From positions 1 through 64,000 of the forward strand of contig JAJXWV010000024.1 in assembly GCA_021781455.1 (NCBI GenBank): a DNA stretch of 64,000 nucleotides, in the 5' to 3' direction. The stretch's first letter is position 1, and each line of letters starts with the position of its first letter. The DNA is from Acidobacteriota bacterium. GTDB lineage: Bacteria; Acidobacteriota; Thermoanaerobaculia; Gp7-AA8. The notes under the pieces were generated by a model. The model had not been told where the DNA came from. It ran no database searches and was given only the letters and a program-made list of their open reading frames with translations. Both the position numbers and the translations under genes were made by a program. This document shows, one piece after another, positions 3,960 through 62,893 of the stretch.

Positions 3960-4058
3960 GTCCTGAGTGCTGAGTGATCGCGCCACCGTCATCCTGAACC
4001 GGCGGAACCGCGCGACCGTCACTCAGGACTCAGCACTCAGGACTCAGGACTCAGGACA
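3953..4058. repeat. Phased 7-nt tandem-unit hairpin (CTGAGTN family)
   Basis: TCCTGAGTCCTGAGTGCTGAGTGA ... CACTCAGGACTCAGCACTCAGGACTCAGGACTCAGGAC; arms reverse-complementary; contains stop codons of both flanking convergent genes. Confidence 0.9.
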
Positions 4059-7049: not shown

Positions 7050-7544
7050 TCACTGTTTCTCCGGACTGACCCGGGATTCGAGACAGAGCCTGGGAGCGGG
7101 GACGAAACCTTCGCTCTCGAAAAACGCGAGCAGGTCGAAATCGCTCCAGGCGACTTCGCTGCGGAACGTGGTCACGCCGAGAGCGCCGAGGTTGGAGCGG
7201 AGCTGCTGCAGAAGCGCGTGGCCGACGCCGCGGCCGCGGACATCGAGAGCCACGCCGATTGCGTCGATCGATGCGGCCGGCTCCACGATTCCGTACTGGC
7301 CGTAGTAGACGGAGGCGATCACGAAACCGAGGACGCGGCCGTCCGCCTCGGCGACGAGCGACATCTGCATCTCGGCCAGGCGCCGGGTCCGCTCCAGGAT
7401 CATGCGAAAGTACTGCGGCCGTTCGTGATGCGCGCTGACCGCGTCGATGGCCGTGATGACCGCGAGGTCCTCCTCGCGGATCGAGCGGACGATCAGGCTT
7501 GCGGTTTCCAAAGTCTCGTTCTCGGGCGACGTCGTTTCGACCAT
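7050..7544 (-). CDS. GNAT family N-acetyltransferase
   Basis: LIVRSIREEDLAVITAID...IDAIGVALDVRGRGVGHALLQQL. Confidence 0.82.
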   Translation of the reverse strand: MVETTSPENETLETASLIVRSIREEDLAVITAIDAVSAHHERPQYFRMILERTRRLAEMQMSLVAEADGRVLGFVIASVYYGQYGIVEPAASIDAIGVALDVRGRGVGHALLQQLRSNLGALGVTTFRSEVAWSDFDLLAFFESEGFVPAPRLCLESRVSPEKQ

Positions 7545-7555
7545 CGAAAATCTCC

Positions 7556-8275
7556 TCATCCGCCGATCAGCTGCCCGGAATCGACGCGCAGGACCTGACC
7601 GGTGATGCGGCGCGCGCCCGGGCCGGAAAGGAACGTCACCACGGCGGCGACGTCGTCCGGCTCGACGAGCTCGCCGGTGACAGTCTCCGCCGCCGCGGCA
7701 TCGCGCAGCTGTGACGGCAGCGACTCGGTCAGGGGCGTGCGCACCCAACCGGGCTCGACGACATTGACCATGATGCCGAAGCGGCCGGCTTCGCGCGATA
7801 CGGTCCTGGCCAGACCGACCAACCCCGCCTTGCTCGACGAGTACGCCGCGGTGCCGCGCTTCCCGCGCGATCCGTTGATCGATCCGATGAGCACGATGCG
7901 GCCGCCGCGGTCGCGCATCAGCGGCACGGCTTCGCGGATCAGAAGGAACGCGCCGCGCAGGTTGACCGCGTGAACGAAGTCCCAGTCCTCCAGGCGCATC
8001 TTCCAGGCCACGGCGTCGCGGGCGACACCGGCGGCATGGACGGCGATGTCGAGACCCCCGGCGCGCTTGCCGACCTGCGCGACCGCGGCGCGAACGGATT
8101 CTTCGTCGCGAAGGTCGCAGCGGATCGACTCCGCCTCCCCGCTGTCGAAGTCGACGAGGTCGAGCGAGAAAACGCGCGCGCCGGCGGAGGCGAGCTGGCT
8201 CACGATGGCGTGCCCGATCCCTCCGGCCGCACCTGTCACCGCGGCGATCTTCCCCGCGAGAGGAGTGGCGCTCAC
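7556..8275 (-). CDS. SDR family oxidoreductase
   Basis: GTG start overlapping the bcrD stop; VTGAAGGIGHAI, HAAGVARDAV, GSINGSRGKRGTAAYSSSKAG (catalytic S-Y-K). Confidence 0.85.
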   Translation of the reverse strand: MSATPLAGKIAAVTGAAGGIGHAIVSQLASAGARVFSLDLVDFDSGEAESIRCDLRDEESVRAAVAQVGKRAGGLDIAVHAAGVARDAVAWKMRLEDWDFVHAVNLRGAFLLIREAVPLMRDRGGRIVLIGSINGSRGKRGTAAYSSSKAGLVGLARTVSREAGRFGIMVNVVEPGWVRTPLTESLPSQLRDAAAAETVTGELVEPDDVAAVVTFLSGPGARRITGQVLRVDSGQLIGG

Positions 8276-9162
8276 GATGCGATCTCCGCGCGGCGCTCGA
8301 GCACACGATGTCTGTACGCGCCCCAGAGCGCTGCGCCGATCGCCCCGGCCAGATGCGAATGCGGATGCGTGTGGATCGTCATCTCCATCCCATCCTCGCG
8401 CGCCTTTTCCGAGAACGCGGCGGCCAGGCCGACGTCGGCAGCGAGCCCGCCGGTCAGCGCCACGTCCGTGGTGACGCCCATGGAGCGCAGCAGTTTCACG
8501 TAACGCCCGGCCATCGACAGGTGAATGCCCTTGAGGATGTCGGCGGCCTTGATGCCGCGGCTGACCATGTTGATGACGTCGGTCTCGGCGAGCACGGCGC
8601 AGATGCTGCTCACCGCTTCCGGCGAGGAGGCGTTGAGCGACATCGGCCCGACGTCCTCCAGCGCGATGCCGAGATAGCGGGCCACGTTCTCCAGGAACTG
8701 CCCCGTTCCGGAGGCGCACTGCGAGGTCATCTTGTAGTTGAGCACGCGGCTGCGCTCGTCGATCTTCATGGCCCGGGCGTGCAGCGCACCGATGTCGACG
8801 ACGGCCCGCGCCTGGGGCATCAGGAACTGCGCGCCGCGGGAGTGCGTGGTCATGCCGTAGAAATGGCCGCGGCGGAACTCGACCAGATCGCCTTCGCCGG
8901 TCGTGGCCACGTAAACCACGTCGCTCTCGCTGACGTTCGCCTTGTCCAGTGCCGCGTGCCAGCAGTCGGCGATCACCTTGCGCAGCTCGCGCCGGCGGAT
9001 GCGCTCCGCATGAAGAGCCACGATCTTCTCCCGTGTAGCACAGACATTCTTGTCTGTGCCCCCCGCCTGGGGAGCCTCTGCCACATCGAGAGTCGTCGTG
9101 AGCGCGACCTTCACCGCGCTCGATCCGACGTCGACACCGGCCGTGAGGAGCTCTCCGCTCAT
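8272..9162 (-). CDS. bcrD: benzoyl-CoA reductase, ATPase subunit D (BcrD/BadG-like)
   Basis: ASKHA ATPase: GVDVGSSAVKVAL, SQCASGTGQFLENVARYLG; adjacent to BcrA, B and C homologues. Confidence 0.85.
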   Translation of the reverse strand: MSGELLTAGVDVGSSAVKVALTTTLDVAEAPQAGGTDKNVCATREKIVALHAERIRRRELRKVIADCWHAALDKANVSESDVVYVATTGEGDLVEFRRGHFYGMTTHSRGAQFLMPQARAVVDIGALHARAMKIDERSRVLNYKMTSQCASGTGQFLENVARYLGIALEDVGPMSLNASSPEAVSSICAVLAETDVINMVSRGIKAADILKGIHLSMAGRYVKLLRSMGVTTDVALTGGLAADVGLAAAFSEKAREDGMEMTIHTHPHSHLAGAIGAALWGAYRHRVLERRAEIAS

Positions 9163-23510: not shown

Positions 23511-23582
23511 TGCGGATTGGGGAGCGTACCCGAATCGAGAGCGCAGAGGGCAGAGGGCAGGGCGCGGAGCGCAGAGCGCGGC

Positions 23583-27380: not shown

Positions 27381-27486
27381 GGCAGACTGCAGACCGCAGA
27401 CCGCAGACTGCAGACCGCAGTGCTGTTTCCCTTCTGTGGTCTGTGGTCCGCGGTCTGCGGTCCGCGGTCTGCGGTCTGCGGTCCGA
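27381..27486. repeat. Phased 7-nt hairpin (GCAGACC/GGTCTGC family)
   Basis: GCAGACTGCAGACCGCAGACCGCAGACTGCAGACCGCAG ... GGTCTGTGGTCCGCGGTCTGCGGTCCGCGGTCTGCGGTCTGCGGTCC. Confidence 0.9.
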
Positions 27487-30397: not shown

Positions 30398-30460
30398 GCA
30401 GACCGCGGACCGCGGACCGCGGACCGCAGACCGCAGACCGCAGACAACGGACCGCGGGCC
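30398..30460. repeat. Phased 7-nt repeat (GCAGACC family), mostly one arm
   Basis: GCAGACCGCGGACCGCGGACCGCGGACCGCAGACCGCAGACCGCAGAC downstream of a start region. Confidence 0.8.
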
Positions 30461-30645: not shown

Positions 30646-30726
30646 ACGCGGCTCTCCCTGGTGTGGGGCGGACTTTCGAGCCCGGGAGGAAGGGCAGGCT
30701 GGAAAGCCTGCCCCACACGGTCTGGC

Positions 30727-32335: not shown

Positions 32336-32427
32336 AGTCCTGAGTCCTGAGTGCTGAGTGCTGAGTGCTGAGGACTTAGGTTTGAGTCGAGAATGGACGT
32401 TCGCTCAGGACTCAGGACTCAGGACTG
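32336..32427. repeat. Phased 7-nt hairpin (CTGAGTN family)
   Basis: AGTCCTGAGTCCTGAGTGCTGAGTGCTGAGTGCTGAG ... CTCAGGACTCAGGACTCAGGACT. Confidence 0.9.
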
Positions 32428-44695: not shown

Positions 44696-44777
44696 GGTCC
44701 TTGGTGTGGGGCGCGGTTTCCAGACCGCCAAGGGGGGGGCAGGGGGCAGGCTGGAAAGCCTGCCCTACACCGAAGCT

Positions 44778-47538: not shown

Positions 47539-48360
47539 TCAGACATGCGGTGTCGTTGGCGACGAAGTCGTGGCCGCCTGGACGGGATTCGTGTCAGGGG
47601 CCGGTGAATTCTGTGCGACCTGCGATTTCATCCACGCCTGGAAGCCGGATTTCGTGTCCACCGTCAGCTGTCCGCGCATCCGGTAATGCCCCAGCCCACA
47701 GAGCTGCGCGCAGGCGATCTCCCAATGGTCGTCGGGGCCGGTCGCCTTCACCGGCGTGAAGTGGATGGCCACGTCCATCCCCGGAATGGCGTCCTGCTTC
47801 ACGCGCATCACCGGGAGGAAGAAGCTGTGGATCACGTCCTTTGACGTGATGTGGATGATGGCCGGCCGGTTCACCTCGAGGTGGAGCTGGTTGAGCGCGA
47901 CCACGTCGTCCTTGGCGTGAGGGTCGGTCATGTCGAGGCCGAGAGGATTGGTCGACGAGACGAGCTTGACGTCGCGGCGGCCGAAGATTCCATCTGCACC
48001 CGGATAGTGGGCGTTCCACGCAAACTGCTCGGCCACGATGCGCAGCTCCAGCGGATTGGTTTCGGGACCGGGGCGGTTCGTCCAGCGGTACCAGGCCGGA
48101 ATCGAGAAGCCGATGAGGAGGACCGCCTCGACGATGGCCACGCCGGCTTCGCTGTAAGTCGACCAGTGCGAGCGCATGCCGTGATAGTTCGCCTTCGGGT
48201 TCCTGTTCGCGTTGAAGCGCCAGAGGACGAAGAGGAAGTAGGCGCCCCAGAAGACGAAGAGGATCAGCATCAGCCAGTGCACGTAGGCATTGAGGCTGTC
48301 GAGCTGCGGCCCGTGCGCCGAGTAGTCGGGCGGCATGTACTGGGCGAGGAATTCTTTCAT
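47539..48360 (-). CDS. ctaC: cytochrome c oxidase subunit II (CuA-type)
   Basis: DVIHSFFLPVMRVKQDAIPGM; CuA segment CAQLCGLGHYRMRG; no heme c motif seen. Confidence 0.92.
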   Translation of the reverse strand: MKEFLAQYMPPDYSAHGPQLDSLNAYVHWLMLILFVFWGAYFLFVLWRFNANRNPKANYHGMRSHWSTYSEAGVAIVEAVLLIGFSIPAWYRWTNRPGPETNPLELRIVAEQFAWNAHYPGADGIFGRRDVKLVSSTNPLGLDMTDPHAKDDVVALNQLHLEVNRPAIIHITSKDVIHSFFLPVMRVKQDAIPGMDVAIHFTPVKATGPDDHWEIACAQLCGLGHYRMRGQLTVDTKSGFQAWMKSQVAQNSPAPDTNPVQAATTSSPTTPHV

Positions 48361-48730
48361 CGCGATTCTCCGGAGTGGTGAGAAGGAGAAGAAGAATTGA
48401 AAATTGAAAATTGAAAATTGAAAACTGGAAGGCTGACAGCACTTGGTTTAGCGCTTTCAATTTTCAATTCTCCATTTTCAATTTTCAATTCGATCTCTCC
48501 TTCAATGTCCATTGCGCGCCTCACTGCAGTTACTGGGCGAGGAATTCTTTCATCGCGATTCTCCGGAGTGGTGAGAAGGAGAAGAAGAATTGAAAATTGA
48601 AAATTGAAAATTGAAAATTGAAAACTGGAAGGCTGACAGCACTTGGTTTAGCGCTTTCAATTTTCAATTCTCCATTTTCAATTTTCAATTCGATCTCTCC
48701 TTCAATGTCCATTGCGCGCCTCACTGCAGT
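48338..48730. repeat. Tandem duplication (193 + 200 bp) of the ctaC 5' region with AT-rich heptamer hairpin
   Basis: Copy 1 48338-48530, copy 2 48531-48730; near-identical, differing by one ATTGAAA heptamer (four versus five units). Confidence 0.95.
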
Positions 48731-56769: not shown

Positions 56770-56880
56770 CAGACCACAGACCACAGACCGCAGACCGCAG
56801 ACCACAGACCACAGTCGGAGGACGCCGTGAGACCGCGATCTGCGGTCCGCCGCCTGCGGTCTGCGGTCTGCGGTCTCGTC
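56770..56880. repeat. Phased 7-nt hairpin (AGACCAC/AGACCGC family)
   Basis: CAGACCACAGACCACAGACCGCAGACCGCAGACCACAGACCACAG ... CTGCGGTCCGCCGCCTGCGGTCTGCGGTCTGCGGTCT. Confidence 0.9.
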
Positions 56881-59648: not shown

Positions 59649-59937
59649 GGGGATGTGAAGTGCTGGTGTGTCGCTAATATCGGCGAATCCGGAAACCATG
59701 TCAATTGAAAATGTGATCTTCGCTACACTGTAACGTGACGTAGCAAGTCGAGCGTGCAGTGGTAGTTGCGAGTTTCGACCCGGCATTTGACGCCGTCGAC
59801 GCCATCCTGAGCAGGCGAAATCGCGCCAGCCGTCACGTTGAGCCGTTCGAGCCGCTCCGCACGCCGCTCGTGTCGGCGAGCTTTTCCAGCGCGCCCAAGG
59901 GGGACAGGCTGGAAAGCCTGTCCCACACGCAGGCGAC

Positions 59938-60814: not shown

Positions 60815-60913
60815 AAGTGCTGAGTACTGAGTGCTGAGTACTGAGTGCTGAGTGCTGAGTGCTGAGAAGGCAGCGTCGCCCACTCAGTACTCAGCACTCA
60901 GTACTCAGCACTT
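60815..60913. repeat. Phased 7-nt hairpin (CTGAGTN family)
   Basis: AAGTGCTGAGTACTGAGTGCTGAGTACTGAGTGCTGAGTGCTGAGTGCTGAG ... CTCAGTACTCAGCACTCAGTACTCAGCACTT. Confidence 0.92.
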
Positions 60914-61409: not shown

Positions 61410-62831
61410 TTAGCGTACGAACGCCACCACGGCCCGCTCATTCACGTACAACGGCTTGACTGTGCGCGTCTTGCGCAGGATTGACAGCTCCGGCGCGGCG
61501 CGCTCCCCGATCCAGACGAACGGACCCGCCGGCGCGGCCGTCTGCGGAGTCGGAAACGCACGCCATCCCGGATGAATTGCCTGCTCCGCCGGCATGGCCA
61601 GCAGATGAGCATGCACGTTCGCCGCCGCCTCGAGGTAGCAGTAGCCGGACGCGACCACGGTGTCGGTCGGGCGGACGTGAGCGGCGGTCCAGAGCGCGGC
61701 GGCGCGGTACGGATCGACGGAACGGCCGGCGTGATCGGCAATGCCCGCACCGGCGACGCTCACGCCGATGAGGAGAAACGCGGCCAGGAGCAGCCGCCGC
61801 AGCGGGGCACTGCAGGCGTCGAGGGAAGCGCCGATCCAGAGCACCAGCGGCACGGCGATCACGGATTCGAGGCGCATCGGGAAGTAGACGCCGGCGAGGA
61901 CGGCCGCGCCCAGCGGAATCAATGTCGCCGAGGCGGCGAAGACGAGCAGTGGGGAAAAGGCTCTGCGGCTGGCGAGCGGCGCCGCGATCGCGATCAGCAG
62001 CAGAACGGCCGCCGCCAGCACCAGCCAGCGTGGCACAGGAGCGAACAGTGCGTAGGGATAAGCACCGGCGAACGAGAGGTCCTGGGTCCACGACCAGCGC
62101 GACTCGTGCAGCCACTGCATCGCTTCGCGCGGCTGGTGCAGCGCGAGCCAGAAGCCGGGAATGAAGAGAACGATCGCCGCGAAAAACGCCGTCCCCCGGT
62201 GTAGCGTCCCCCCGTGTAGGACAGGCTTTCCAGCCTGTCCCTCGTGTAGGACAGGCTTTCCAGCCTGTCCCTCGTGTAGGACAGGCTTTCCAGCCTGTCC
62301 CCCGTGAACGACGAGCACCAGCGGAAAAAACAGCGCGCCGTAGTAATGCGAATACGCCGCCGCGACGAACATCGCCGCGGCGACGAACGGGCGATCGCTC
62401 CAGACCGCGAGCAGGCCAGCCGCTGCGAACATCGCACAGAGCGCGTAGGCGCGGGCATCGATGGCGAACAGCACCGCGGGCGGGTAGACCGCCAGCAGCG
62501 CAGCGGCGAGGAAGCGTACGTTCCCGAGCGGCCGCGCACTCACGATCAACGCCAGCGTGACCGTCGAGGCGATCAGCGACAGAACGCGAATGGCATCGAC
62601 CGAGCGCAGCGCCAGCGCATGCACGACGAAGTAGAACAGCGGCGGCCCGGAGTCGTGTCTCAGCGCCTCCAGAATGCCGGCGAACGGCTTCGACACGATC
62701 CAGAGGGTGAAGAGCTCGTCGAAGAACGGCTCGCGGACGCGGAGGAGCGCGATGCGAAGAGCCAGAAATACGAAGACGATCGCCGCGACGATCGCAGCCT
62801 GTCCGCGGCGGGATTCGAGAAGATCGTTCAT
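61410..62831 (-). CDS. GT39/ArnT-like polytopic glycosyltransferase family protein
   Basis: N-terminal REPFFDELFTLWIVSKPFAGIL (catalytic Asp-Glu region) and many TMs; contains three 10-aa repeats. Confidence 0.75.
   Translation of the reverse strand: MNDLLESRRGQAAIVAAIVFVFLALRIALLRVREPFFDELFTLWIVSKPFAGILEALRHDSGPPLFYFVVHALALRSVDAIRVLSLIASTVTLALIVSARPLGNVRFLAAALLAVYPPAVLFAIDARAYALCAMFAAAGLLAVWSDRPFVAAAMFVAAAYSHYYGALFFPLVLVVHGGQAGKPVLHEGQAGKPVLHEGQAGKPVLHGGTLHRGTAFFAAIVLFIPGFWLALHQPREAMQWLHESRWSWTQDLSFAGAYPYALFAPVPRWLVLAAAVLLLIAIAAPLASRRAFSPLLVFAASATLIPLGAAVLAGVYFPMRLESVIAVPLVLWIGASLDACSAPLRRLLLAAFLLIGVSVAGAGIADHAGRSVDPYRAAALWTAAHVRPTDTVVASGYCYLEAAANVHAHLLAMPAEQAIHPGWRAFPTPQTAAPAGPFVWIGERAAPELSILRKTRTVKPLYVNERAVVAFVR
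62213..62303. repeat. Three tandem 30-bp palindromic units (family E) inside a CDS
   Basis: CGTGTAGGACAGGCTTTCCAGCCTGTCCCT three times; encodes HEGQAGKPVL-type decapeptides in the minus-strand ORF. Confidence 0.95.
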
Positions 62832-62893
62832 CGCGTGTGGAGCGGGCGTTCCAGCCCGCTCCGGCGGCAGGCTGGAGAGCCTGCCCGCACCGG

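Follow-up and report, generated by a model that had tools for sequence, protein, structure and literature searches.

A GT[AG]G-tagged REP element arrayed in a glycosyltransferase loop of a Thermoanaerobaculia bacterium, and other repeats in the same loop of its relatives

Results

A three-unit palindromic array lies within a membrane glycosyltransferase gene

The window (the whole analysed stretch of 64,000 nucleotides, positions 1 to 64,000 of contig JAJXWV010000024.1, assembly GCA_021781455.1) carries a gene for a membrane glycosyltransferase that contains three 30-bp palindromic units (Table 1). A preliminary description made from the window had reported three identical tandem units in frame with the gene, their 30-nt period in phase with its codons, and this was borne out by Tandem Repeats Finder, by the exact cores and by the translation of the minus-strand ORF at 61410-62831, where the array reads as GGQAGKPVLHEGQAGKPVLHEGQAGKPVLH. 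The copies in the gene are direct repeats, not inverted pairs. Next to them lie pieces without a hairpin, namely a GTGTAG tag at 62199 and GTCCC tails at 62191 and 62206, which are probably units that have undergone deletion. The related single copies noted earlier between genes (30690-30720, 44740-44775 and 59893-59935) are also present, and a fourth, at 62866, had been overlooked.

Tandem Repeats Finder also returned numerous short arrays with a period of 7 bp (AGTGCTG/AGTACTG, CAGACCA and others), frequently as two neighbouring arrays, which make up another type of dispersed repeat in the genome. They lie at many places in the window, for example 4021-4057, 23538-23579, 27382-27483, 30401-30457, 32336-32426, 48395-48690, 56770-56876 and 60816-60912. 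It returned as well a 200-bp tandem duplication at 48338-48730 (two copies, 96% matches) with AATTGAA heptamer arrays inside.

Table 1. Features of the window, the REP-flanked RAYT gene of contig C39, and genes that contain REP copies in the sampled part of the genome
Feature	Position	Strand	Remarks
Glycosyltransferase gene (473 aa, GT-C fold, ArnT/PMT-like)	61410-62831	-	REP-encoded residues about 176-206; host of the three-unit array
REP array, three 30-bp units	62209-62306	+ (host gene coding strand -)	Tandem Repeats Finder: period 30, 3.3 copies, 97% matches
REP copy 1, tag GTGTAG and hairpin	62214-62239	+	core exact at 62220
REP copy 2, tag GTGTAG and hairpin	62244-62269	+	core exact at 62250
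REP copy 3, tag GTGTAG and hairpin	62274-62299	+	core exact at 62280
Remnants without hairpin, tails and one tag	62191-62213	+	Tandem Repeats Finder 62190-62219, period 15
REP copy upstream of glycosyltransferase gene	62866-62891	-	core match; decayed tag
Intergenic REP copy	59903-59928	-	core match
Intergenic REP copy	44745-44770	-	core match; GG..CC arm type
Intergenic REP copy	30693-30718	-	core match; GG..CC arm type
RAYT gene	C39:7536-8099		between response-regulator gene and kdpA; REPs on both sides
KdpB gene			two sites, six copies
KdpC gene			REP in C-terminal part
DNA polymerase III alpha subunit gene			intragenic REP
Class II ribonucleotide reductase gene			intragenic REP
M15 peptidase gene			REP near N-terminus; start uncertain
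Molybdopterin-dehydrogenase-type FAD protein gene			REP C-terminal
CcmH gene			REP after domain
NRPS gene			intragenic REP
PKS gene			intragenic REP

The repeat unit is a tagged hairpin dispersed through the genome

We searched the 4.88-Mb genome with the core of the unit, GACAGGCTTTCCAGCCTGTC, and found it at 214 places (105 forward and 109 reverse; ≤2 mismatches). The core read backwards had no match in the same genome and dinucleotide shuffles gave none either, which rules out a chance palindrome. From 92 copies in 864 kb of sampled sequence the consensus is GTGTRG-GRCAGGCTTTCCAGCCTGYC, followed by C and pyrimidines, with the fixed bases of the tag each conserved in 75-77 of 78 copies. The folded single strand is a 9-bp stem with a 4-nt loop, TTCC, and a stable hairpin forms on either strand. 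Two arm types, GA..TC and GG..CC, are maintained as pairs. If the arms varied independently, 45.7 of the 92 copies would have a Watson-Crick second stem pair (2-19), and 87 do. When 23 copies, including some from G009, a relative of another genus, were aligned, every stem cell was paired and four pairs had two-sided changes; sliding the partners as a control left no pairs with two-sided changes. In 21 cases in the sample, neighbouring copies form an inverted (+-) pair, their starts separated by 23-58 bp. Of the 92 copies 67 are intergenic, though 87% of the sample is coding.

A canonical REP is defined by a GT[AG]G tetranucleotide 0-2 nt from a hairpin with a stem of 7-20 and a loop of 2-5 nt (PMC6006769). 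The tag, hairpin, copy number, compensating changes and inverted pairs found here are those of the GTAG REP superfamily, and the repeat unit is a canonical GT[AG]G-tagged REP element.

The array encodes a disordered loop that orthologues do not share

Neither Pfam nor NCBIfam has a match for the window glycosyltransferase, and one orthologue matches PF11028 (3.6e-8). An AlphaFold model of the protein (pTM 0.83) has its best PDB matches in the ArnT GT-C glycosyltransferases 5f15 (E 2.4e-5; TM 0.50-0.55) and 5ezm (E 1e-4), and the invariant residues D38 and E39 form an acidic motif after the first helix, as in the GT-C fold. The earlier label of a GT39-like protein would therefore be apt for the modelled fold, but not for the family. 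In the model the insert is predicted to be disordered, with pLDDT <50 for residues 179-189 and 191-207, and is framed by confident helices at 163-173 and 209-222. Of the proposed extracytoplasmic or loop segment, it is thus the loop that the model favours, but not the extracytoplasmic side: in orthologues without the repeat the loop is short and Arg-rich, which under the positive-inside rule suggests that it lies on the cytoplasmic side.

Orthologues are present in most of the family, and the full-length ones are 43-59% identical with invariant motifs. The REP insert is missing from all 12 orthologous sequences aligned, which rules out an ancestral domain, a possibility that the preliminary description had set against its own reading. 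The missing Pfam match might also point to a pseudogene or a spurious gene call, in which case the repeat would really be intergenic. This is scarcely credible given the full-length orthologues with their invariant motifs, a codon-usage score of 109, the match to the ArnT fold and a frame that stays open across the array.

REPs lie inside ten sampled genes, clearest in KdpB

We then examined how often REPs occur inside genes, using a sample of 864 kb (18% of the genome) that consists mostly of contiguous contigs and partly of stretches picked for holding copies (C39, parts of C27 and C33, and the window), with genes called by codon usage in this analysis (coding fraction 0.873). Intragenic copies (25 of 92, in 10 genes; Table 1) are far below random expectation, yet many. 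The clearest case is KdpB, which matches E. coli KdpB over its length and has two stretches of extra residues relative to it, one in the loop that follows the first helix and one near residues 144-201; both inserts are missing in the congener G001, in four other relatives (five in total) and in E. coli. The NRPS and PKS genes are giant frames (>3,700 and >6,600 aa within the stretches read; L076 and L077, G000 C40:1-40000), and their REP-encoded peptides fall outside matched domains.

The REP unit is open in 5 of 6 reading frames, and in all 6 with a GTGG tag. Direct tandem copies are spaced by a multiple of three in 8 of 8 cases within genes, against 1 of 7 outside (Fisher p 0.0014); with arrays counted once the figures are 5 of 5 against 1 of 6 (p 0.015), a statistic of only five independent gene arrays that also depends on the codon-usage gene call. 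A different role for the palindromes would be as mRNA hairpins in attenuation or stability, with coding incidental. REPs elsewhere do influence mRNA (PMC8049555, PMC3733652) and the hairpin is stable on either strand, but the intragenic copies occupy central parts of long genes, in both orientations and several reading frames, where a stable terminator would be harmful, and we regard regulatory RNA as very unlikely.

One probable RAYT gene is flanked by the REP

There are 14 Y1_Tnp genes in the genome. One of them, on contig C39, has 10 REP copies within 1.5 kb (at 7336-7528 and 8167-8485); no REP copies lie near the other 13. Its protein carries NHVH, WQ and YIDMNP motifs, scoring 40.8 bits against PF01797 (cut-off 23) but 79.7 bits, just short of the curated cut-off of 80, against NF047646 (REP-associated tyrosine transposase). 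The locus has the makeup of a REPtron, a Y1 HUH transposase gene with the same REP on both sides, and from this position we infer that the C39 RAYT mobilised these REP copies. Related RAYTs (≤51% identity) are common in genomes where the REP is absent, so that a comparison of RAYT presence with REP presence across relatives is uninformative and physical flanking alone informs on the association.

The kdp operon is split by the REP-flanked RAYT (L075, G000 C39, 6638-14821). Of the 92 sampled copies, 18 fall within 20 kb here, a density roughly tenfold that found elsewhere.

A search of 396 genomes of the phylum placed the tagged REP in numbers in just two, this one (178) and G009 (88); three others have 1-3 stray matches, and the core has no match in the congener G001. 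G009 has a single Y1_Tnp gene, which is unflanked, and a search there for a REP-flanked RAYT found none, a point against the RAYT account. REPIN-bearing genomes without a RAYT exist in E. coli (PMC8049555). Transfer, or gain and loss, would each fit this patchy distribution.

In G009, REP-like units also occur four in a row, head to tail, with a 30-31 bp period and mostly with the tag GTGTAA (L144, C46:71000-76000, at 2799-2921), upstream of a carbonic-anhydrase-like gene and outside any gene. Since arrays of this period also form outside genes, the array form is not specific to proteins.

Other repeats occupy the equivalent loop in relatives

Alignment showed that four further repeats, each multi-copy, occupy the equivalent loop, one in each of four sequences that span three genera. 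The congener G001 has a 130-bp element, present in ~40 copies in its genome, whose ends GTCATCCCGAGC and GCTCGGAATGAC are related to each other, and G012 has the palindrome GGAGCGCGGGCGACCTCGCCCGCG (365 matches in G012, hardly any in other genomes). In G015, one paralogue carries GTGTGGGGACCGGCTTCAGCCGGTCC, a GTGG-tagged palindrome (9 matches in G015, 10 in G008 and 69 in G010), and the other CCCTCTCCCCGCGAGCGGGGAGAGGG, a palindrome present in five genomes of the family and so nearly symmetric that most places are counted on both strands. Together with the window REP, five repeat families share one loop. Two of them are in two species of the window's own genus, while G012 represents a second genus and the paired G015 paralogues a third. 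By alignment, then, related species filled the glycosyltransferase loop separately, each with its own different repeats.

The glycosyltransferase orthologues L055 (G012) and L054 (G006) have unusual inserts at other loops (ARATPPAPLPPGGRGR and TPERSEADGEAALIAAGRRRG) that resemble translated repeats.

The preliminary description had taken the array for decapeptide repeats whose copy-number change would allow length variation. A decapeptide repeat evolved by the protein, with copy number tuning its length, is not supported, because the unit is a dispersed, genome-wide and mostly intergenic palindrome that also occurs in unrelated proteins and in several frames, and because the loop of relatives holds other repeats. 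For a contingency repeat, retained since changes in copy number vary loop length and tune the enzyme, one could cite the in-phase 30-bp period, the identical units and the loop position, but recent duplication likewise yields identical units, and the dispersed unit, the unrelated repeats in the equivalent loop and the arrays outside genes in G009 leave such a function highly improbable.

Five repeat families in one loop raise a second possibility, that mobile repeats favour it through its sequence or single-strandedness, beyond tolerance. Five or more families of mobile repeat (REPs and a MITE-like element) would then have reached the loop independently, in different lineages of a single bacterial family, making it a recurrent landing site that evolves chiefly by repeat capture. 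We hold such a target or structural preference to be possible but rather unlikely: inserts that are tolerated can be expected to accumulate in a disordered, length-variable loop, the families found there share no sequence relationship and some orthologues seem to bear inserts at further loops. That a disordered loop tolerates inserts is enough to account for the repeated colonisation.

Discussion

We consider it highly likely that a GT[AG]G REP copied by a RAYT landed in a variable, disordered loop, was tolerated there and was then duplicated locally. In such a course of events, the RAYT (a Y1 HUH transposase of the IS200/IS605 group) would copy the REP hairpin in trans as single-stranded DNA, and one copy would have entered the length-variable loop of the glycosyltransferase gene in a recent landing. 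The insertion would be tolerated owing to the disorder of the loop and the largely open reading frames of the unit. Head-to-tail duplication by replication slippage or recombination, of which slippage is our presumed cause of the array, would then have left three units beside hairpin-less remnants; within a gene only length changes by a multiple of three would survive. The REP-encoded peptide itself is presumably near neutral.

A REP/RAYT system has reached the proteome of an Acidobacteriota lineage, where the conserved enzymes KdpB, DNA polymerase III alpha, ribonucleotide reductase, an NRPS and a PKS bear REP-encoded peptides. One loop independently filled by different mobile repeats amounts to a natural experiment on the sites at which a protein will take up additional sequence. 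In annotating this lineage, peptides like GQAGKPVLHE, DRLESLSYT and VGQAFQPVP are best treated as translated REPs rather than domains.

In a limited search of the open-access literature we found no earlier description of a colonised glycosyltransferase loop or a doubly invaded KdpB, and open-access papers that join REPs and RAYTs with Acidobacteria came to two (PMC3733652 and PMC6006769). The closest known systems are the GTAG REPs and REPINs with their RAYTs (PMC3733652; PMC6006769; PMC8049555), which share with the present repeat a hairpin that has GT[AG]G at its foot, many copies per genome, singlets alongside inverted pairs, a REP-flanked RAYT gene and mostly extragenic copies with some in frame within genes. 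GTGG-tag variants are known in Opitutus terrae (cited among the same papers). In contrast to those systems, the host here belongs to Thermoanaerobaculia (Acidobacteriota), and direct in-frame tandem arrays of 27-42 bp period lie in genes; GTAG repeats have been assigned to other phyla, the Acidobacteria of that study having TIR-flanked transposases (TIRYTs) (PMC3733652).

Rickettsia palindromic elements are likewise palindromes in frame in many genes for conserved proteins (PMC3733652), but their tag is CGTC and no dedicated transposase is known for them, whereas the present repeat has a GTRG tag and a RAYT flanked by its copies, and so we do not place it among them. A parallel to the loop is recB of Xanthomonas campestris and X. 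oryzae, where different REPs occur at about one gene site in different species (PMC3733652), although the glycosyltransferase loop holds five repeat families in three genera, including a MITE-like element of 130 bp. A 2013 report (PMC3733652) thus covered GTAG REPs with their RAYTs, the GTGG variants, REPs lying in frame inside genes and the case of several REPs at a single recB site. This kind of REP is already known; what is new is its member in Thermoanaerobaculia and a glycosyltransferase loop that has been colonised repeatedly.
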